DNA of 36,090 nucleotides, taken from the NCBI GenBank assembly GCA_024709165.1, contig JANJXF010000128.1, forward strand, positions 1-36,090. The letters are read 5' to 3'. The notes under the pieces are model-generated. The model did no database searches. It had not been told where the DNA came from and saw nothing but the letters and a program-made list of their open reading frames with translations. The DNA is from Thiobacillus sp. (GTDB taxonomy: Bacteria > Pseudomonadota > Gammaproteobacteria > Burkholderiales > Thiobacillaceae). Below are positions 2,579 through 13,596 of this stretch, piece by piece (position 1 is the stretch's first letter; the number at the start of each line of letters is the position of its first letter). Position numbers and translations under genes: made by a program.

Positions 2579-3874
2579 TCAGCCACCCGGATCGGCGAGC
2601 GAACCGTCTTCCAGAGCCACACGCTTCACTTCCTGCAGCGTGGCGCTGTCGTAGACGACGAGCGTACTCTCCACACTCACCAGCGCATGCCGGCCGTCGC
2701 GGCTGAAGGTGAGGCGTGCGGCCACGGCGCCGGATTGCGGACAGACACGGCCCGCCGGTTCGAGCGTCGCCTTGTCGATGAAGACGAAGCAGCCGCGCAA
2801 CGCGCCGTCGAAGCCACCGAGCCAGGCGTAGGGGCTGGCGCCATGGCTGGCGAGGCTGCACCCGGGCGCTTCGACGGCGATGTGCCGCAATACCTGCCAG
2901 GTGTCGCGGTCCAGTACACTGACCACACTCTCCGTGCAGTTCGGCAGCGCGAGTATGGCGCGTCCGCGCCGTTCCCATGCCGCAGCGCCGCCAGCGTGCG
3001 GGCGCCCCGGCAGCGGCATGCGCGCGATCGCGCGGCGTACGTCGAGATGCACGATGTGCGCGGTGATGCCATCGGGCGGCACGCCGATCATATGCTCGAA
3101 CGAGCGTTCAAAGAAAAAATCCGCGATGGGCGTGTCGAGGCGACTGCGGCGCGGCGCGAACGGCCCTTCGACGATGTGGCCTTCGCGCAGGTTGAAGTCG
3201 TGCACCAGACCTTCGTAGACCGGCTGCGGGTTCGCTGCGTAGGACATCTCCCATATCTCGGGGATGTCGCTGAACGTGGCGATGAAGCTTTGCCGTGGCG
3301 TGGCGTCGACGACACGGGCAACGCTCGAGGCAAGCCCGTCCTTGTTGCGCACGGGAATACGGCGGATGAGTGCAAGATCGCGCGCGTCCAGCGCCACCAG
3401 GGTGTGTGGGACGGCATTGCCGGCCATCAGCACGCGGCCGTCGCCGGACAGCGCCACACTGTGCAATTCGTGGCCGACGCGGATTTCCGCCACGGTACGC
3501 AAGGTGAGAAGGTCGAGTTTGCGCACCCAGCCGTCGCGCGTGGCGAGGAACGCGAAGCGGCCATCCGGCGACACCGGTGGCGCGCCCGCGAGTGCATGGT
3601 CGAGGGCGATGCGCCGCAGTGGCGCGTACGTTTCGCCGTCGAGCAGGCTGAGGTGACGGTCGGTGGGGTCCGCCAGCAGCACCAGCGTGCGCAGGTCCGC
3701 GACGTGGGCCGGCCTGCCCTCCGCTGCCGCGTGCGCGACGTGCGAGGCGCGAATGGCAACTTCGTCGCCGGACCATGCCGGCGCGGCAACGCCGCCACGC
3801 ACGACCGTGACCCACGCCGCCAGGACCAGCGCCAGCGTTACCCTGCCGATGCTGCCCTGCCCTGCCCGCTTCAT
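2579..3874 (-). CDS. Degenerate NirN-like d1-propeller protein without cytochrome c domain
   Basis: A 431-residue protein with an N-terminal signal-like segment (roughly residues 10-31, ending GGVAAPAW) and an eight-bladed-propeller d1-type domain that aligns along its length with the d1 domain of the neighbouring nirN. Shared landmarks are SPDGRFAFLATRDGW, LSGDGRVLMAGN, ADFFFERSFEHMIG and YDSATLQEVKRV. It lacks any CXXCH haem-c site. By eye-alignment, the proximal haem d1 histidine (His180 in NirS, His166 in NirN, His62 in NirF) is replaced by Ala96. The distal PH motif (His293 in RPHAGG) is kept. The gene starts 14 bases after the nirN stop, with a GAGG site overlapping that stop, so it is co-transcribed. 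It probably arose by tandem duplication of nirN. A non-catalytic haem d1 carrier, a NirN/NirS partner or a relic are all possible; function unknown. Confidence 0.75.
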   Translation of the reverse strand: MKRAGQGSIGRVTLALVLAAWVTVVRGGVAAPAWSGDEVAIRASHVAHAAAEGRPAHVADLRTLVLLADPTDRHLSLLDGETYAPLRRIALDHALAGAPPVSPDGRFAFLATRDGWVRKLDLLTLRTVAEIRVGHELHSVALSGDGRVLMAGNAVPHTLVALDARDLALIRRIPVRNKDGLASSVARVVDATPRQSFIATFSDIPEIWEMSYAANPQPVYEGLVHDFNLREGHIVEGPFAPRRSRLDTPIADFFFERSFEHMIGVPPDGITAHIVHLDVRRAIARMPLPGRPHAGGAAAWERRGRAILALPNCTESVVSVLDRDTWQVLRHIAVEAPGCSLASHGASPYAWLGGFDGALRGCFVFIDKATLEPAGRVCPQSGAVAARLTFSRDGRHALVSVESTLVVYDSATLQEVKRVALEDGSLADPGG

Positions 3875-3888
3875 CGCCGCAGCGCGCC

Positions 3889-5379
3889 TCAGTGGCTGGT
3901 GCCGGCGGAGCGGGTGATCTTGTTGTACACGTTGTACTTGCCGGAGGGCTTCTTCATCGGGATGCGCTTGACCTCCTGCAGCGTGTCCGCGTCGTAGATC
4001 ACCAGCGCGCCGTCGTTCTCCCAGATGCTCACCAGCGCGTATTTTCCGTCGCGGGTGAATTCGACATGGGCCGCGGTCTTGCCGGGCTCGGGACGCAGCA
4101 CGTGCGCGACCTCGAGCGTGTCCTTGTCGATGAGGTGCATCACGTCGCGGCTTGTCGGGTCGCCGGTGGCGAAACCGTCGGTCCAGGCGTAGCGTGTGTT
4201 CTCGTGGCTGCGCATGAAAAAGCCGGGGCCGAGCGTCTTGATCGCTTTCACCGTCTGCCAGGTCTGCATGTCGATGACGCTCACCACGCCCGCTTTCATG
4301 TTGGGCGTGGCCATCACCGGATGACCCCGATAGTCCCAGGTGATGCCGGAGCCCAGATGCGGCATGCCGGGGAGATCGAGCTCGGCGAGCTTGCGGCCGG
4401 AATCGAGATCGAGCACCTGCCCCTTGTGACTGTCGCGCGCGCTACCGATAAGAAGCTTGTAGGATTGATCGAAAAAAAAGTCGTCGAGATAATCGTCGAC
4501 CGCGATGCGGCGCAACGGGAAGTCGCGCCGGGTGTAGTCGATCTCCCACACCTCCCTGGTGTCCTTCAGCGCGGCGACGAAACTGCCGCGCGGCTCGGCC
4601 TGGTACACGGCGGACACGCGCGAGGAAACGCCATCCTGCCCGACGCTGGGGATGACCTTGATGACGCGCAGGTCGGCGGCGTCGAGCAGCACCAGACTGT
4701 GTGGCAGATAGTTGCCGACCAGGAGCGTCCTGCCGTCACCGGAGACGGCAAGGTTGCGCGTGTTGAGTCCGGCGCGCACCTCGGCCACGGTCTTCAGGCT
4801 GAAAAGATCGAACTTGCTGATCCAGCCGTCGCGCGAGGCGAAGTAGACGAAGCGTCCGGTGGGCGAGAACTTGGGCCCGCCGTGCAGGGCGAAGCGCGTT
4901 GCGAAACGGTGGATCGGCTCGAAGCGGTCGCCGTCGAGGATGGTGGCGTGATGGTCGCCAAGCTCCACCACCACGAAAAGATTGTGCGGATCGGCCTTGA
5001 ACCCGGGACGCGCCGGCAGTTTCGCCGACGGCACATGACGCACGCGCGTGGCGGCGATTTCCTTCTCGCCCCACACCGGCACCTCGGCCAGCGGCGTATA
5101 GATGAAGTCGGCCAGCGCCTCGATTTCCGCTGCCGCGAGCTTGTCGGAGAACCCCGCCATCTGGCTCGCCGCACGACCCTGGGCGATGACCTTGACCGCC
5201 TCGCCGCGCCGCAGGCGCGAAAGGTTTTCCGGCAGGAGTGCCGGGCCAATGCCGCCCAGACGCCCGGCGCCGTGACAACTGGCGCAGTGCTCCGCGTAGC
5301 GCTTCTCGGTGCCGGGTGCGGGGTCCGCGAGCGCGCCGCCGGCCAGCAGCAGCGCAAGACCGAAAACGACACTACGCAT
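3889..5379 (-). CDS. nirN: NirN, periplasmic dihydro-haem d1 dehydrogenase
   Basis: A 496-residue protein with a signal peptide (to about residue 19, GGALADP), a monohaem cytochrome c domain (CASCH, residues 32-36) and a C-terminal d1-type propeller. This is the NirN architecture, which resembles NirS. NirN performs the last step of haem d1 synthesis, oxidising dihydro-haem d1 before transfer to NirS. The putative proximal histidine is His166 in RFALHGGPKFSPTGR and the distal one is His341 in MPHLGSG. The first catalytic histidine of NirS (FLHDGG) is Phe here (FFFDQS), which separates it from a true nitrite reductase. The ATG at 5379 overlaps the nirJ stop by 8 bases; a TTG at 5388 is an alternative start. 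NirN and NirS are homologous, but the position at the end of the biosynthesis block and the missing FLHDGG histidine support NirN. Confidence 0.9.
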   Translation of the reverse strand: MRSVVFGLALLLAGGALADPAPGTEKRYAEHCASCHGAGRLGGIGPALLPENLSRLRRGEAVKVIAQGRAASQMAGFSDKLAAAEIEALADFIYTPLAEVPVWGEKEIAATRVRHVPSAKLPARPGFKADPHNLFVVVELGDHHATILDGDRFEPIHRFATRFALHGGPKFSPTGRFVYFASRDGWISKFDLFSLKTVAEVRAGLNTRNLAVSGDGRTLLVGNYLPHSLVLLDAADLRVIKVIPSVGQDGVSSRVSAVYQAEPRGSFVAALKDTREVWEIDYTRRDFPLRRIAVDDYLDDFFFDQSYKLLIGSARDSHKGQVLDLDSGRKLAELDLPGMPHLGSGITWDYRGHPVMATPNMKAGVVSVIDMQTWQTVKAIKTLGPGFFMRSHENTRYAWTDGFATGDPTSRDVMHLIDKDTLEVAHVLRPEPGKTAAHVEFTRDGKYALVSIWENDGALVIYDADTLQEVKRIPMKKPSGKYNVYNKITRSAGTSH

Positions 5380-6523
5380 GCACTTCAACGTCGATCTCCT
5401 CGTCGGTCAGATAACAGGCCGGGTCCTCCGCCCACGGGTCGCCGCTCACCTGCCAGGCGCGCACCCGCGTGTTGCCGCCGCAGATGTCGAAATGCGCGCA
5501 GGCGCCGCAGCGCCCGCTCACCGTGCGCGGACGCGCCTTGAGGCCGGCCATGATGGGGTCGGAGGTGTCCATCCAGATCTCGGAAAACGGCCGCTCGCGC
5601 ACGTTGCCGAGCGTATGGTTCCACCACATGGTATCGGGATGGACATTGCCCAGGTTGTCGATGTTGGCGACGTTGACGCCGCTCGAGTTGCCGCCCCATT
5701 GCACGAGCTTGGCGCGCATGTGCGCCTCGAGGTGCGGAAAATGCTCACGCACCCACAGCAGCAGATACACCCCGTCGGCATCGTTGTTGCCGGTGACGAA
5801 CTCCTTGCACCGGCCGTTCTGCTCCGCCCGCCAGCAGGTGTCGAACAGCAGGTCCATCGCCTGCCGCGTGGTGCGGTGGTAGGCGTCGGTCTTGCGGTTG
5901 CGGTTGCCGCGTCCGGCGTAATTCAGATGCGACAGGTAGAACTTGTCGAGTTCCTCGTCCTCCAGCAATTGCAGCAGCGCAGGCAGGTCGTGGGCGTTGT
6001 CCTGCGTGAGCGTGAAGCGGATGCCGACCTTGATGCCGCGCTCCTTGCACAGGCGGATACCGTGCATGGACTTGTCGAACGCGCCGTCCATGCGGCGGAA
6101 GGTGTCGTGTGTCTGCGCGATACCGTCCAGGCTCACGCCGACGTAGTCGAAACCGACCGCGGCGATGCGCTCGATGTTGTTCGCGTCGATCAGCGTGCCG
6201 TTGGAGGACAACCCGACATAGAAGCCCATGGCCTTGGCACGCGTCGCGATATCGAAAATGTCGGGGCGCAAGAGTGGCTCGCCACCGGAGAGGATCAGTA
6301 CCGGCACACGAAAGCGCTTCAGATCGTCCATCACGCCGAAAACTTCGGCGGTGGAGAGCTCGCCGGGAAAGTCCTTGTCGGCGGAGATGGAATAGCAGTG
6401 CTTGCAGGTGAGGTTGCAGCGCCGGATCAGGTTCCAGATCACCACCGGGCCGGGCGGGTTGCGCGTCGGTCCCAGCGGCGTGGGTTGGGCGATTTCCTGC
6501 ATGTACTGGGAGATTCTGAACAT
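5372..6523 (-). CDS. nirJ: NirJ, radical SAM enzyme of haem d1 synthesis
   Basis: A 383-residue cytoplasmic radical SAM protein. The S-adenosylmethionine 4Fe-4S cluster motif is CNLTCKHC (Cys36, Cys40, Cys43), followed by LSGGEPLLRPD. A C-terminal SPASM-like auxiliary cluster is shown by Cys339, Cys342, Cys348 and Cys370 (CGACAHFDIC, then PACYL). NirJ removes the propionate side chains of 12,18-didecarboxysiroheme and replaces them with oxo groups on the way to haem d1. The length matches the family. It starts 22 bases after nirH and its stop overlaps nirN. The placement between siroheme decarboxylase subunits and nirN agrees with the assignment; the haem d1 context argues against the related AhbC/AhbD or PqqE enzymes. 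Confidence 0.95.
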   Translation of the reverse strand: MFRISQYMQEIAQPTPLGPTRNPPGPVVIWNLIRRCNLTCKHCYSISADKDFPGELSTAEVFGVMDDLKRFRVPVLILSGGEPLLRPDIFDIATRAKAMGFYVGLSSNGTLIDANNIERIAAVGFDYVGVSLDGIAQTHDTFRRMDGAFDKSMHGIRLCKERGIKVGIRFTLTQDNAHDLPALLQLLEDEELDKFYLSHLNYAGRGNRNRKTDAYHRTTRQAMDLLFDTCWRAEQNGRCKEFVTGNNDADGVYLLLWVREHFPHLEAHMRAKLVQWGGNSSGVNVANIDNLGNVHPDTMWWNHTLGNVRERPFSEIWMDTSDPIMAGLKARPRTVSGRCGACAHFDICGGNTRVRAWQVSGDPWAEDPACYLTDEEIDVEVHA

Positions 6524-7481: not shown

Positions 7482-8474
7482 TCACGCCGCGGCACGAACG
7501 TAGCGTGCCCCACACTGCTTGAAGCGGCGCGTGCTGAACAGCACCTCGAAAGCGATGTCCGTGAGGCCACAGCTCTGGCGCATCGCCTCGACGCGCGCCA
7601 GCACCTCGGCGCGGTCGCGCCCGTGGATCATGCAGAACAAGTTGTAACGCCAGGCGGGCAGACGACGCGGGCGACGGTAACACAGGGTGACGTATTCGAT
7701 GTCGCCAAGACAGCTACCGACTTCGTCCACCACGCCATCCGGGATGTCCCACACCACCATGGCGTTGGCGCGGAAGCCCAGCTCGTGGTGACGCACCACC
7801 ACGCCCATGCGCCGGATCACCCCGCGCGCCACGAGATTCTGCAGCGTGGCGATCGCCGCATCTTCGCTCATGTCTGCCTGCGCTCCGACCGCCGCATAGG
7901 GCCGCGGAACGAGCGGCAGGCCCGCCTGGATGGCGGCGATCAGCCGGGTTTCCGCAGCACTCGGCACATAGGGCGGACGCACGCCACCGGCGTGGGATTC
8001 GACGTGCCGCATACGCTTGGCCCGGACACCGGTGAGGTCGAAGCCGAGGTCGATGTGATAGTCCTCGACCAGCGGCAGAAACAGCACACGACGGCCCGAG
8101 CGCTCCTCGATTTCATGCAGCACCCGCTGCAACGCCAGTTCGTCCGGCGCGGTCACGACGAACCACAGGTTGTAGTGATGCTCACGCTGGTAATTGTGGT
8201 TGACCTCGGGATAGGCGCTCACCAGTTGCGCGACCCGCTCCAGATCGTGCTCCGGCACCGCCAGCGCGGCCAGCGTGCTGGCACCGATACTGCGCGGACG
8301 AAACACCGCGCCGACGCGGCTGACCGTGCCCTGCGCCTGCAAGCGGACAAGCACCTCCAGAACCGCCTCCTCGGACGCGCCGAGCGCGTCGCCGAGCGCG
8401 GCGAACGGCGCCGGCGTCAGCGGAAAGTCGTGCTGGTAATCGTTGAGCAGGCTGAGTTCCAGATCGGCGTTCAT
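7482..8474 (-). CDS. nirDL: NirDL, fused siroheme decarboxylase subunits
   Basis: A 330-residue fusion of two AsnC/Lrp-fold siroheme decarboxylase subunits. The NirD-like half (about residues 1-150) carries GAVFRPRSIGASTLAALAVP and HNYQREHHYNLWFVV. The NirL-like half (about 172-330) starts SAAETRLIAAIQAGLPLVPR and carries RRMGVVVRHHELGFRANAM and YNLFCMIHGRDRAEV. The two halves are about twice the length of nirG and nirH together with a linker around residues 150-170. In Pseudomonas aeruginosa NirD and NirL are separate; fused NirDL is known from other denitrifiers. The ATG at 8474 overlaps the nirF stop in an ATGA, and nirG follows after 4 bases. The enzyme decarboxylates siroheme at the C12 and C18 acetates. 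Confidence 0.93.
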   Translation of the reverse strand: MNADLELSLLNDYQHDFPLTPAPFAALGDALGASEEAVLEVLVRLQAQGTVSRVGAVFRPRSIGASTLAALAVPEHDLERVAQLVSAYPEVNHNYQREHHYNLWFVVTAPDELALQRVLHEIEERSGRRVLFLPLVEDYHIDLGFDLTGVRAKRMRHVESHAGGVRPPYVPSAAETRLIAAIQAGLPLVPRPYAAVGAQADMSEDAAIATLQNLVARGVIRRMGVVVRHHELGFRANAMVVWDIPDGVVDEVGSCLGDIEYVTLCYRRPRRLPAWRYNLFCMIHGRDRAEVLARVEAMRQSCGLTDIAFEVLFSTRRFKQCGARYVRAAA

Positions 8475-9643
8475 AGTCCGGTCCTGTGCGCACGGTGGGT
8501 GAAGAAGATGCCGCTCGGGCTGTCGAGCGCGAGTTCGCCGACGAGCGCGAAGGTTTCACTGTCGTAGACCAGCACCTTGTTGTCGTCGCGCGCCGACAGC
8601 CAGGCGTGTTCGCCGCGCGGTGTGAATTCGATGTGCAGCACCCCTCGCCCCGGCTTGAAGGTGTGCACGACGCGACGGCTCGGCACGTCGATGACCTGCA
8701 CCGTGTCGTTGTGCGGAAAAGCGAAGTTCACCCACACCTGACGGTTGTCCGGACGCGCCACCACAAACACCGGCTGACCGTGCACCGCGATGCGGCCGGT
8801 CTCCTTCCAGTTGCCCTGATCCACCACCAGCACCTCGTGCCGGCCGACCGCGGGCACCAGCAGTTCCGTGCCGGTCGCAGCCCAGCCTTCCAGATGCGGC
8901 ATCTTGTACACCGGCAGTTTTTGTTCGCCGCGGCCATACCCATCGAGAACGCGCGTGACGCCGGCGTCGAGGTTCCACAGGTCGAGCAAGGCAAGGCCGT
9001 CCTCGCCGAACAGGCCGGCGAGATAATGCCTACCGTCGGCGGTGATCATGGCGTCGTAGGGTTCCTTGCCGATGTTGCGAAACTTGCGGAGCTGCGGCTT
9101 GCGCGGATCGCTGAAATCGCCAACCCAGATTTCCCCCGCCTCGAACAGGCTCCACACGAAACGCTTACCCGCCGCATCGACCAGGCCGATGACCTTGGAC
9201 GGCTTGCCCGCGTCGTCCAGCGCCGGGATGTCGGCGAGCAGTTCGAGCGTAGCGGTATCGAACACTTTCACACCACCCGGTGCGTAATTGGCGACCGCGA
9301 GCAGCCGCCCGTCCTGCGAGATCGCCCCGCCAATGCTGTTGCCCGCCTGCACAGTGCGTCTGACGAGTTTCTGTTGCAGCAGATCGACCTGCGTCAGGCC
9401 GCCGTCGCGGCCGAACACATAGGCGTAGCGGGCGTCGCGCGAGAAATTCAGCGAGGCGTGCGAGAGGTCGCCCAATCCGTCGATGCGCCCGAGCACGCTG
9501 CGGCCGCTGGTCTCGACGATCGCCACGCTGCCGGCGGCGCGCTCGATCACCACGCCGAGATCGCCGGTGCCGCGCAGCGGCGCCTGCGCGCAGCCTTGCA
9601 GCGTCAGCATCAGCAACGCGACGAAAGCAAACCAGGCACGCAT
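8471..9643 (-). CDS. nirF: NirF, haem d1 biosynthesis lipoprotein
   Basis: A 390-residue d1-propeller protein needed for a late periplasmic step of haem d1 formation. The N terminus is a lipoprotein signal (MRAWFAFVALLMLTLQGC, lipobox Cys18), so the protein is anchored to the membrane facing the periplasm. The conserved His62 (LSHASLNFSRDARYAYVFGRDG) aligns with the proximal haem ligand of NirS, and His250 (KMPHLEGW) aligns with the distal histidine. The ATG at 9643 has an AAGGGAAAA ribosome site and shares its A with the stop of nirC (TGATG). The stop overlaps nirDL (ATGA). No cytochrome c site is present, as expected for NirF. A reading extended upstream in the same frame is not used because it lies inside nirC. 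Confidence 0.95.
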   Translation of the reverse strand: MRAWFAFVALLMLTLQGCAQAPLRGTGDLGVVIERAAGSVAIVETSGRSVLGRIDGLGDLSHASLNFSRDARYAYVFGRDGGLTQVDLLQQKLVRRTVQAGNSIGGAISQDGRLLAVANYAPGGVKVFDTATLELLADIPALDDAGKPSKVIGLVDAAGKRFVWSLFEAGEIWVGDFSDPRKPQLRKFRNIGKEPYDAMITADGRHYLAGLFGEDGLALLDLWNLDAGVTRVLDGYGRGEQKLPVYKMPHLEGWAATGTELLVPAVGRHEVLVVDQGNWKETGRIAVHGQPVFVVARPDNRQVWVNFAFPHNDTVQVIDVPSRRVVHTFKPGRGVLHIEFTPRGEHAWLSARDDNKVLVYDSETFALVGELALDSPSGIFFTHRAHRTGL

Positions 9644-9963
9644 CAGAATTTTCCCTTCAGCAGCATATCGACCACCCATTCGGCCTCGGCTTCGCTGAGG
9701 AAGGGCGCCCACGGCGGCATGGCGGTTCCCGGACGGCCATACAGAATGGTCGCGACCAGACTTTCCCGCGGCTTGTCGTGCAGCGCTTCGGGGCGCAACG
9801 GCAGGCCCAGCCCCCCGGCCAACGTCATCCCGTGGCAGGAGCCGCAATCCTGCCGCACCAGATGGGCGATTTCGCGTTGCCGCGCGGCGTCCGGGTCCGC
9901 CGCCGGCGCAACGCAGGGAATCACGAGCACGATCGCAAGCCATGTGAGTCGCCATTGCTTCAT
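9643..9963 (-). CDS. nirC: NirC, small monohaem cytochrome c
   Basis: A 106-residue secreted cytochrome c with a signal peptide (about residues 1-21, ending VAPAADP), one CXXCH site (DCGSCHGMTLAGG) and a likely Met ligand in GRPGTAMPPWAPFL. Its size and position next to nirF fit NirC (cytochrome c55X), which acts as an electron acceptor/donor in haem d1 maturation and can reduce NirS in some species. The ATG at 9963 overlaps the stop of the cupredoxin gene (ATGA), and the stop touches nirF. Confidence 0.88.
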   Translation of the reverse strand: MKQWRLTWLAIVLVIPCVAPAADPDAARQREIAHLVRQDCGSCHGMTLAGGLGLPLRPEALHDKPRESLVATILYGRPGTAMPPWAPFLSEAEAEWVVDMLLKGKF

Positions 9964-10271
9964 TCGATCACTTCAACCAGGCCGCGCATCTCCGGGTGCG
10001 GGCCACAACGGTACGGATAGGCACCGGGCCGTTCGAACGTGCGGCGATAAGTCTCGCCGGGAAACAGGCGGTCGGATTCCAGCCCGTTTTCCTGTTCGAA
10101 GAGCACCGAGTGATTGGTGCGCTTCTCGCGGTTGATCCAGGTGACGGTGGCCCCTGCCTTGACCTTCACGGCCGGCGGATCGAAACGCATGTTCTCGATC
10201 GCTACCTCGGCCTCGGTCGCCCCGGCGGGGCCGGCGAGGACAGCGACGGCAATCCAGGTGCGGCGCAGCAC
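9960..10271 (-). CDS. Small secreted cupredoxin (plastocyanin-like)
   Basis: A protein of about 103 residues with a signal peptide (LRRTWIAVAVLAGPAGATEA) and one cupredoxin domain. Type-1 copper ligands are visible: His in RTNHSVLF, then Cys, His and Met in YRCGPHPEMRG. The stretch FDPPAVKVKAGATVTW is the usual plastocyanin/amicyanin-like N-terminal strand pair. It should shuttle single electrons in the periplasm. Sitting between the haem protein gene and nirC, it is a candidate donor to NirS or a partner of the haem d1 enzymes. The start is uncertain: the GTG at 10271 gives a compact signal peptide, while the GTG at 10328 has a GGGG site, lies 19 bases from the upstream gene and would add 19 residues. 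The stop overlaps nirC (ATGA). Confidence 0.82.
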   Translation of the reverse strand: MLRRTWIAVAVLAGPAGATEAEVAIENMRFDPPAVKVKAGATVTWINREKRTNHSVLFEQENGLESDRLFPGETYRRTFERPGAYPYRCGPHPEMRGLVEVIE

Positions 10272-10347
10272 AGTGCCTGTCCGCTGCCGCCATCCTCGCG
10301 CCGGGCCGTGGCCACTGTCCAAACTCACCGCCGCACCCCGCCGTTCG

Positions 10348-11256
10348 TCACTTCGCCGCGCTGATGTCGGCCTTGGTGTCGATGCCGAGGCTGTAGCCGA
10401 ACGACACGTGATGGAAGCGGCCCGCCGCGTGGTCGTTGTGGATGGCGAAGCCCAGGTTGTACGACTTGCCCGAGGCCAGCGCGATATCACCGTCGCCGCC
10501 GGAAAGCTTGCGGGTGAAGGTCACCACCCAGGTGTCGCCTTCCTTCTTGCCCTCGGCCTTCGCCAGCGCCTTGCCGCCTTCCATGACGCGCTTGTCGGCG
10601 ACATGGCCGTCGACACCCTTGCCGCCCTTGCCGCTTTGCCACTGCATGAGGTCGTAGTAGTTGCCGGAAGCGAGCGAGGCGCCGATGACGTACTTGGTCT
10701 TCTTGTCATTGCCGGCCGGCATGGTGCGGACGTCGGCGTGACAGGTCCCCCAGCACCCGCCCGCGCGTCCGATCTGCACCGTGGCGCCGCGCGTGTCCTT
10801 GGCGGTAATTTTGTTGTCCTCTAGCATGACCGCGAGCTTGATCGGATTGTCCTTGTCCATCTTCTCCGCGCCGCCGCCGGCATCCTTCCAGCTGAAGCGC
10901 AGGTAGAGGTTCGTGCCGTCGTTGGCGGCCTGTACCGTCACCGGCATGGTCGGCACGCGGCCGGCAACCGGCTTCGGTTCGAGTTTCTCGCCCTTGAGTA
11001 TCTTGTCCGAGGCGATGTCGACGTTACGGGTCTTCTCGTCCTCGTGGCAGGCGATGCACGTCTCGCCCTTTTTCAGCCCCTTGGCGCCGCCGTGCTGGGT
11101 GCCGTTCATGATCCATTCGAGGTTGGCCGGACCGGGATAAAACACCGTCACCTTGCGCGAGGGCACCTTGCTCCAGTCCGGGGCCGCGAGCGCAGTGCCG
11201 GCGCTCGCCGCGAGCGCGAGTCCGAGAACCGAAATGCCGAGCGTTGCCTTGTTCAT
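10348..11256 (-). CDS. Ethylbenzene-dehydrogenase-type periplasmic haem protein
   Basis: A 302-residue secreted protein (signal peptide to about residue 24, AGTALAAPDW) that looks like the EB_dh/DMSO-reductase-family gamma-type haem-binding fold, with VPTMPVTVQAANDGTNLYLRFSW and a C-terminal YNLGFAIHNDHAAGRFHHVSFGYSLG. One ordinary haem c site is present (CIACH, residues 67-71). A second possible site is CWGTCH at 168-173, which has three residues between the cysteines (CX3CH) rather than two. It is the third gene of the nir operon, with a strong AAGGAG site 7 bases before the ATG. Inference: it relays electrons between the tetraheme protein upstream and NirS or the cupredoxin. The exact haem content and partner are unknown. 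Confidence 0.78.
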   Translation of the reverse strand: MNKATLGISVLGLALAASAGTALAAPDWSKVPSRKVTVFYPGPANLEWIMNGTQHGGAKGLKKGETCIACHEDEKTRNVDIASDKILKGEKLEPKPVAGRVPTMPVTVQAANDGTNLYLRFSWKDAGGGAEKMDKDNPIKLAVMLEDNKITAKDTRGATVQIGRAGGCWGTCHADVRTMPAGNDKKTKYVIGASLASGNYYDLMQWQSGKGGKGVDGHVADKRVMEGGKALAKAEGKKEGDTWVVTFTRKLSGGDGDIALASGKSYNLGFAIHNDHAAGRFHHVSFGYSLGIDTKADISAAK

Positions 11257-11308
11257 GCAAAATCTCCTTGAGTCGATGGAAAGCGTGTCGAATGCTGCGG
11301 GCCGGCGA

Positions 11309-11893
11309 TCAGAGTTCGTCCTCTTCGGTCATGCCCTCGGGTTTCTTGTGCGCGATGCCCTTGTGGCAGTCGATGCAGGTCATCTTGTCCTCGAGCGCCA
11401 TCTCGTGCTGTTTCTTGGCACGCGTTTTCTGCACCTCGGTGTTCATGCCGTCGAAGCTGTGGCAGTTGCGGCATTCGCGCGAGTCCGACGCCTTCATGCG
11501 TTTCCATTCGTTGCGCGCGAGTTGCAGGCGCTTGGCCTCGAACTTCTCCTTGGTGGCGATGGTGCCCATCACCTTGCCGTACAGTTCCTTGCTGGCCTGC
11601 ACCTTGCGGACGATCTTGTGCGTCCAGTCCTTGGGTACGTGGCAGTCCGAGCACACGGCGCGTACGCCGGTGCGGTTCGAATAGTGGATGGTCTGCTTGT
11701 ATTCCTGATAGACGTTGTCGCGCATCTCGTGGCACGACACACAGAACTCCAGGGTGTTGGTGGCTTCCATGCCGGTGTTGAACCCGCCCCAGAACAGGAT
11801 GCCGGCAACGAAGCCGCCCCCCAGCAGGGTCAGGATCGAATACTTGGCGGTCGGCGAACGCAGCCGGGACCACCATCCCTTCTTTGCACTCAT
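11309..11893 (-). CDS. NapC/NirT-family tetraheme cytochrome c
   Basis: A 194-residue membrane-anchored cytochrome with one N-terminal transmembrane helix (about 19-37) and four CXXCH haem sites: CVSCH (51-55), CSDCH (81-85), CRNCH (141-145) and CIDCH (173-177). NapC/NirT proteins oxidise membrane quinol and pass electrons to periplasmic reductases without the bc1 complex. The position directly after nirS mirrors nirT in Pseudomonas stutzeri, so it probably feeds NirS. A GAGGGAG site precedes the ATG. The gene follows nirS after 62 bases that include a strong hairpin. The name nirT is likely but the subfamily (NapC versus NirT) was not verified. Confidence 0.88.
   Translation of the reverse strand: MSAKKGWWSRLRSPTAKYSILTLLGGGFVAGILFWGGFNTGMEATNTLEFCVSCHEMRDNVYQEYKQTIHYSNRTGVRAVCSDCHVPKDWTHKIVRKVQASKELYGKVMGTIATKEKFEAKRLQLARNEWKRMKASDSRECRNCHSFDGMNTEVQKTRAKKQHEMALEDKMTCIDCHKGIAHKKPEGMTEEDEL

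Positions 11894-11955: not shown

Positions 11956-13596
<1,641 letters not shown>

Follow-up and report, generated by a model that had tools for sequence, protein, structure and literature searches.

A cytochrome-less NirN relative in a Thiobacillus nir operon, with a candidate role in handing haem d1 to NirS

Directly downstream of nirN, the window, i.e., the whole stretch of 36,090 nucleotides analysed here, carries a gene for a NirN-like protein that lacks both the cytochrome c domain and the proximal haem d1 ligand (Table 1; the focal gene and focal protein below). The gene is under selection and is not decaying. Judged from sequence comparison, the focal protein may well be a non-enzymatic derivative of NirN that helps to hand haem d1 to NirS. 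The insertion of haem d1 into NirS is an open question in denitrification, and a loop-based hand-over by a non-catalytic NirN derivative, if true, is testable with two point mutations. In the literature surveyed, no title or abstract opening mentions a NirN without its cytochrome domain, the import of haem d1, or a TonB receptor next to nirS.

Fold and haem d1 site of the focal protein

The focal protein matches PF02239, the cytochrome d1 haem domain, with 186.9 bits (curated cut-off 25.5). Its predicted fold is the d1 propeller, and structure and sequence matching both place it nearest to NirN (dihydro-haem d1 dehydrogenase, PDB 6RTD and 6RTE), in keeping with the original prediction. The two proteins share an operon and the distal-side histidine. 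Unlike NirN, the focal protein has no CXXCH motif and no N-terminal cytochrome c domain anywhere in its scanned sequence, lacks the proximal histidine and other invariant residues, and contains a loop that is missing from the NirN of 6RTD. In having a d1 propeller without a cytochrome domain it resembles NirF (dihydro-haem d1 synthase component, PDB 6TV2 and 6TV9), whereas from NirS (cd1 nitrite reductase), with which it shares ~17–21% identity, it differs by the absence of haem c and of the proximal histidine.

According to PMC7278500, His182 of NirS is the fifth iron ligand, and the equivalent histidine of NirN and NirF turns to coordinate the iron. In our alignment of 78 d1 domains this proximal column is histidine in 54/54 NirN, 11/11 NirF and 9/9 NirS, and alanine in the focal protein; the predicted loss of CXXCH and replacement of the proximal histidine by Ala96 are thus exact to the residue number. 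Three other Thiobacillus copies are likewise without the histidine, the residues of the four being Ala (G000, G014 and G004) and Thr (G010). His93, which had been named as a ligand that might take its place, is histidine in just two of the four copies and was rejected. Further residues invariant in NirN are missing from all four copies, namely His441 (replaced by Arg), Glu443, Arg393, Lys275 and the C-terminal KYN..NK, where the numbers are those of the window's own NirN counted from TTG and the catalytic role of NirN residues is inferred from conservation.

The start of the focal protein, read from the sequence, is signal-like with no cysteine near the cleavage region. Cys362 and Cys378 occur in all four copies; Cys313 and Cys339 occur together in three and are both absent from G004. 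Disulfides are the likelier state of these two pairs by sequence, and a new metal site composed of them was rejected because the first pair is absent from G004. PADLOC gave no match in the window.

Table 1. Positions of the features discussed
Feature	Position	Strand	Basis or remark
Cytochrome-less, proximal-His-less NirN-like protein, 431 aa (focal gene)	2579..3874	-	PF02239, E 5.4e-55
Signal-peptide-like N-terminus, residues 1–31	3782..3874	-	Read from the sequence, with low confidence in the model; dN/dS >1
Ala96 codon, proximal haem d1 ligand position	3587..3589	-	Alignment
Conserved core, residues 194–281	3032..3295	-	dN/dS 0.21, against 0.31–0.35 in the remainder of the propeller
Long loop GLVHDF....E, residues 212–240, missing from neighbouring NirN	3155..3241	-	Alignment
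His225 to Glu231, both kept in 16/16 cytochrome-less relatives	3182..3202	-	Alignment
His293 (distal PH), kept only in the four Thiobacillus copies and G652	2996..2998	-	Alignment
nirN of the short-loop type; CXXCH and proximal His present	3889..5388	-	Pfam/PDB match
nirJ (presumed name, from gene order and sequence)	5372..6523	-
nirF	8471..9643	-	Pfam/PDB match
nirS	11956..13584	-	Pfam/PDB match
Cupredoxin-like, c10348 (one CXXCH) and nirT genes (names presumed)	9960..11893	-	Near several other cytochrome-less NirN relatives

Operon context

The operon runs in the order nirS, nirT, c10348, cupredoxin-like gene, nirC, nirF, nirDL, two NirD/L/G/H-type genes, nirJ, nirN, focal gene and dGTPase gene, with aroB upstream; genes that have no Pfam or PDB match carry names presumed from the gene order customary in nir clusters. 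The focal gene starts 14 bp past the nirN stop codon. For nirN itself, an in-frame TTG overlaps nirJ and an ATG follows three codons on, either of which could be the start.

The nirT, c10348 and cupredoxin-like genes lie near a cytochrome-less gene in the window and in four other genomes described below (G587, G565, G652 and G423), which would suit a focal protein acting in their electron-transfer route. Such a role is highly improbable: the protein has no redox site, none of the three genes was found with these queries in the stretches of G390, G137, G305 and G214, and all three occur without a cytochrome-less gene in G006, G202 and G049. A strict link between the gene trio and the cytochrome-less gene was likewise rejected.

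The loop and the origin of the gene

In the loop stretch, 45 of the 54 NirN sequences are ~20 residues longer than the remaining nine, and the NirN of the window belongs to these short ones; the P. aeruginosa NirN (6RTD) is also of the short-loop type. Because its loop is absent from the neighbouring NirN, the focal gene probably did not arise by simply copying that neighbour. In the tree, the four Thiobacillus copies form one clade with a long stem, located near the long-loop NirN of another family in the order with weak support (75/55). What stands of the predicted tandem NirN paralogue is therefore a NirN-like d1 propeller encoded beside nirN; simple tandem duplication of the neighbour is disfavoured by the long loop and the tree placement, although a clade of the four copies with short-loop NirN is not rejected by the AU test (p 0.326). 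A strict pairing of short-loop NirN with a cytochrome-less gene was also considered and rejected, since it holds in Thiobacillus and in G451/G452 and fails in three genomes: the NirN of G565 and that of G652 have the loop, and the NirN of G587 has a variant loop.

Distribution and selection in Thiobacillus

Among 56 Thiobacillus genomes, 21 have NirN, seven of them of the short-loop type. The focal gene is found in four of these seven and in 0/49 others, always between nirN and the dGTPase gene; the three loci nearest to that of the window come from MAGs named Thiobacillus sp. In G006, G202 and G444 the nirN–dGTPase junction is alike but empty, and this absence from 3/7 Thiobacillus genomes with the same operon type indicates that the gene is dispensable in sister genomes.

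The four reading frames are intact and 66–83% identical. Pairwise dN/dS across the four genomes is 0.27–0.35 for the focal gene (rows involving G006 were cross-hits to NirN and were dropped) and 0.05–0.17 for nine neighbouring genes, and the gene is selected rather than decaying, since its ratio lies well below 1. Two of the findings that the original prediction had named as speaking against it, a decaying gene and orthologues with the proximal histidine, are thus not observed among the four Thiobacillus copies. By region, the ratio is lowest in residues 194–281 (Table 1) and reaches 1.24 in residues 1–31.

These values also bear on whether the gene is a relic, i.e., what is left of an earlier NirN that the current one replaced, surviving by chance and decaying slowly. 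The long stem, the ratio above that of the neighbours, the value for the signal peptide region, the lack of the gene in sister genomes whose operon is otherwise alike, and a cytochrome remnant in G652 (below) would all agree with such a history. We consider it unlikely in view of the four intact frames and the low overall ratio, the recurrence of such genes beside nirS, and the fusion of the loop to a receptor, in which the loop core is the most constrained part.

Cytochrome-less relatives in other genomes

Profile searches matched 102 of the 297 genomes from an alphaproteobacterial order and 87 of the 399 from the order to which the window belongs. The former contain cytochrome-less relatives in G451, G452, G587, G565 and G652 (5/297); in the latter, the profile search and the fetched loci yielded G390 and G423 besides the window genome. 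Eight regions with second or partial profile matches were inspected, of which L144 is a NirN whose frame is broken and L145 a NirN truncated by the contig end; the partial matches in G506, G468, G686, G453, G517, G693, G730 and G654 were left out. A contig scan required either of two peptide patterns. As DGRVLMAG was among them, the likeness between the focal protein and the G451/G452 copies in that segment was selected for and is excluded as evidence. Searches of plasmid records gave 22 and two matches; four of the 22, checked by annotation, carry full-length NirN-like genes. Apart from the MAGs named Thiobacillus sp., no cytochrome-less member was traced to a named organism.

The cytochrome-less relatives are linked to nirS in every lineage. 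Absence of CXXCH, retention of the loop histidine and glutamate, and linkage to nirS are the traits by which we recognize such a relative, and the focal protein has all three. The G587 gene directly follows nirN, with a possible ATG 7 bp past the stop codon, as in the window, and the G423 relative has shrunk to ~207 residues, loop included. A regulator or an inactive partner of NirN, for example in a mixed complex, could be expected directly downstream of nirN, where the gene is found in the window, in the three other Thiobacillus genomes and in G587, but this assignment is quite improbable, as relatives sit next to nirS where canonical NirN was not found.

The G652 gene (L140:6999-8393) has CATCP in place of CXXCH, has otherwise lost the cytochrome domain, and keeps the proximal histidine; it adjoins nirS, and the canonical NirN lies on a separate contig. 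By sequence, this copy is a probable evolutionary intermediate. As regards a single origin of the cytochrome-less form, eight rows in the tree of relatives form one clade at 97/99, in which, however, long branches meet, and the G652 copy stands separately from the other cytochrome-less rows; without the longest rows, Thiobacillus and G587/G565 group at 66/96. Placement of the alphaproteobacterial copy with alphaproteobacterial NirN is not rejected (p 0.216), and that of G587/G565 with their own NirN gives p 0.044.

On plasmid p4 of Azospirillum brasilense Sp 7 (L146), a d1 gene of NirS size, a NapC/NirT gene, a plastocyanin/azurin-type gene and a d1 gene of NirN size form a short cluster, with no further nir biosynthesis gene annotated in that stretch.

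Conserved residues and a proposed hand-over to NirS

Across 16 cytochrome-less or fused proteins, the invariant columns are Gly115, Arg194, Trp208, Glu209, His225, Glu231, Arg242, Leu277 and Arg281, although the short proteins align uncertainly at Gly115. Conservation is centred on the loop and its surrounding blade. Of the 16 proteins, 12 extend over the proximal position, and one of these (G652) has histidine there. In ten proteins compared for residues invariant in NirN, segment 206–247 retains 5/7 to 7/7 and the rest of the protein 23/139 to 115/139 (Fisher p <0.05 in 6/10). The conservation of the loop is partly inherited, because His225 and Glu231 are also kept in 23/23 and 22/23 long-loop NirN.

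The distal PH motif, which the original prediction described as kept, is indeed retained in Thiobacillus, where both His293 and His344 are present in 4/4 copies, and is lost from the other relatives except G652. A carrier of haem d1, or of a precursor, whose tetrapyrrole iron is bound by His293/His344 or by the loop residue His225, would draw on these histidines, on His225 in 16/16 relatives, and on the retained propeller fold. It is not very likely, given the loss of His293/His344 in the other lineages, the loss of further NirN-invariant residues, and the fused and shortened proteins, which have too little propeller for a d1 pocket. That the loop, and not the distal histidine, is kept across all cytochrome-less relatives speaks less for a d1 site that half works than for a hand-over to NirS. 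The suggested function as a haem d1 chaperone or an inactive partner of NirN or NirS thus came close to the evidence, with loop conservation favouring the hand-over to NirS.

In the periplasm, as described in PMC13168839, dihydro-haem d1 is produced by NirF and NirC, and haem d1 by NirN; the pantotrophus NirN transfers haem d1 to NirS in vitro, according to PMC3694632. By analogy of sequence, the focal protein would be exported to the periplasm, would have no dehydrogenase activity, and would help to pass haem d1 (or dihydro-haem d1) to apo-NirS, its loop either docking apo-NirS or touching the tetrapyrrole during the hand-over. In the operon of the window, such a helper would work beside a loop-less NirN. 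Several observations count against the helper role: the loop conservation is partly inherited, the gene is dispensable in sister genomes, the dN/dS of the focal gene is two to three times that of its neighbours, the P. aeruginosa NirN works without the loop, and the canonical NirN of G565 and G652 has the loop too. The proposed role is carried over to the focal gene from its relatives by their shared conservation, because its own genome has the full haem d1 pathway.

TonB-dependent receptors beside lone nirS genes

Some of the relatives come from genomes with NirS in which canonical NirN and NirF were not found. At E 1e-25, PF02239 identified 15 single-match genomes among the 399; together with G390 and G423 (two matches each, a relative already known) they form a set of 17, and four other two-match genomes lie outside it. 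NirS is present in 17/17, and in G390 and in both NirS of G423 the three histidine positions of the d1 site are kept. The absence of biosynthesis genes is called from PF02239 at this threshold and, for four genomes, from NirJ, several of the genomes being incomplete: for G390, G423, G057 and G137 (4/17), the best NirJ match has E 5.6e-30 or none is found at 1e-20, compared with 1e-164 or better in five nirJ-bearing genomes. In G390, a further gene (L173:895-2772) specifies a divergent protein that combines CXXCH with a d1-like domain and is neither canonical NirN nor NirF; this genome is accordingly not free of NirN-like proteins.

Cytochrome-less profile matches lie near nirS in 8/17 of these genomes (6/15 of the single-match ones, the unbiased subset), i.e., G390, G423, G305, G137, G214, G399, G373 and G344. 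Seven of the eight start within 0.5 kb downstream of nirS, and the G423 gene lies between two nirS genes. In G399, G373 and G344, the NirN-loop fragment (~200 residues with a signal-like start) is the N-terminus of a TonB-dependent receptor of 901–925 residues, of the haem/haemoglobin type (TIGR01786/TIGR01785), a part that the focal gene does not have. Plug and barrel are recognized by Pfam in 3/3 partial sequences, and TIGR01786 scores above cut-off in the 2/2 tested. The fusion is not one assembly error, because in their receptor parts the G344 protein shares 71% and 79% identity with the two others. Within the fused protein, the loop core has the lowest dN/dS (0.13) and the receptor 0.35.

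Searching the 17 lone-nirS stretches of 11.5–19.9 kb with the G344 receptor part (E 1e-4) yielded a TonB receptor in 15 (13/15 of the single-match ones; L176–L182, L184–L189, L191 and L143). It is fused to the loop or within 1.8 kb of nirS in 14 of them, with start sites estimated, and 6.2 kb off in G274; the receptor genes are often divergent from nirS or directly downstream of it. The same query found none in the stretches of G059 and G161, in the window, or in 21 control stretches. Of these controls, all but L070 and L141 contain nirS or part of it, which makes 19 (four plasmid records by annotation). Receptors are thus near nirS in 15/17 lone-nirS stretches versus 0/19 nirS stretches with NirN (Fisher p 2e-8, a value that ignores relatedness; nine of the 19 controls are Thiobacillus, six with the same operon). 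Compared with NCBIfam, ten receptors divide into four of haem type above cut-off (L179, L181, L182 and L186), four with a haem type best but below cut-off (L189, L176, L184 and L191), and two that fit better to a siderophore type (L143) or to PRK13483, a ligand-gated channel (L185).

From this gene neighbourhood, we infer that organisms with lone-nirS genomes may import haem d1. The loop module, encoded beside nirS or fused to the receptor, would then hand the imported haem d1 to NirS. Taking these genomes together with the window, we tentatively propose that haem d1 is a traded cofactor: nirS bacteria without synthesis genes would import it by a TonB receptor, a NirN-derived loop module, free or fused, would load NirS, and the focal gene would be a loading module kept by a maker of haem d1. 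The pattern of a lone NirS, a TonB receptor and a fused NirN loop predicts haem d1 uptake and cross-feeding; if true, a nirS gene without biosynthesis genes in a genome or metagenome could mean reliance on a neighbour's cofactor. Finally, we note that G090, G118, G146, G167, G352 and G371 are among the genomes with at least two NirS-like PF02239 matches of ~500 bits, some of them a few kb apart.
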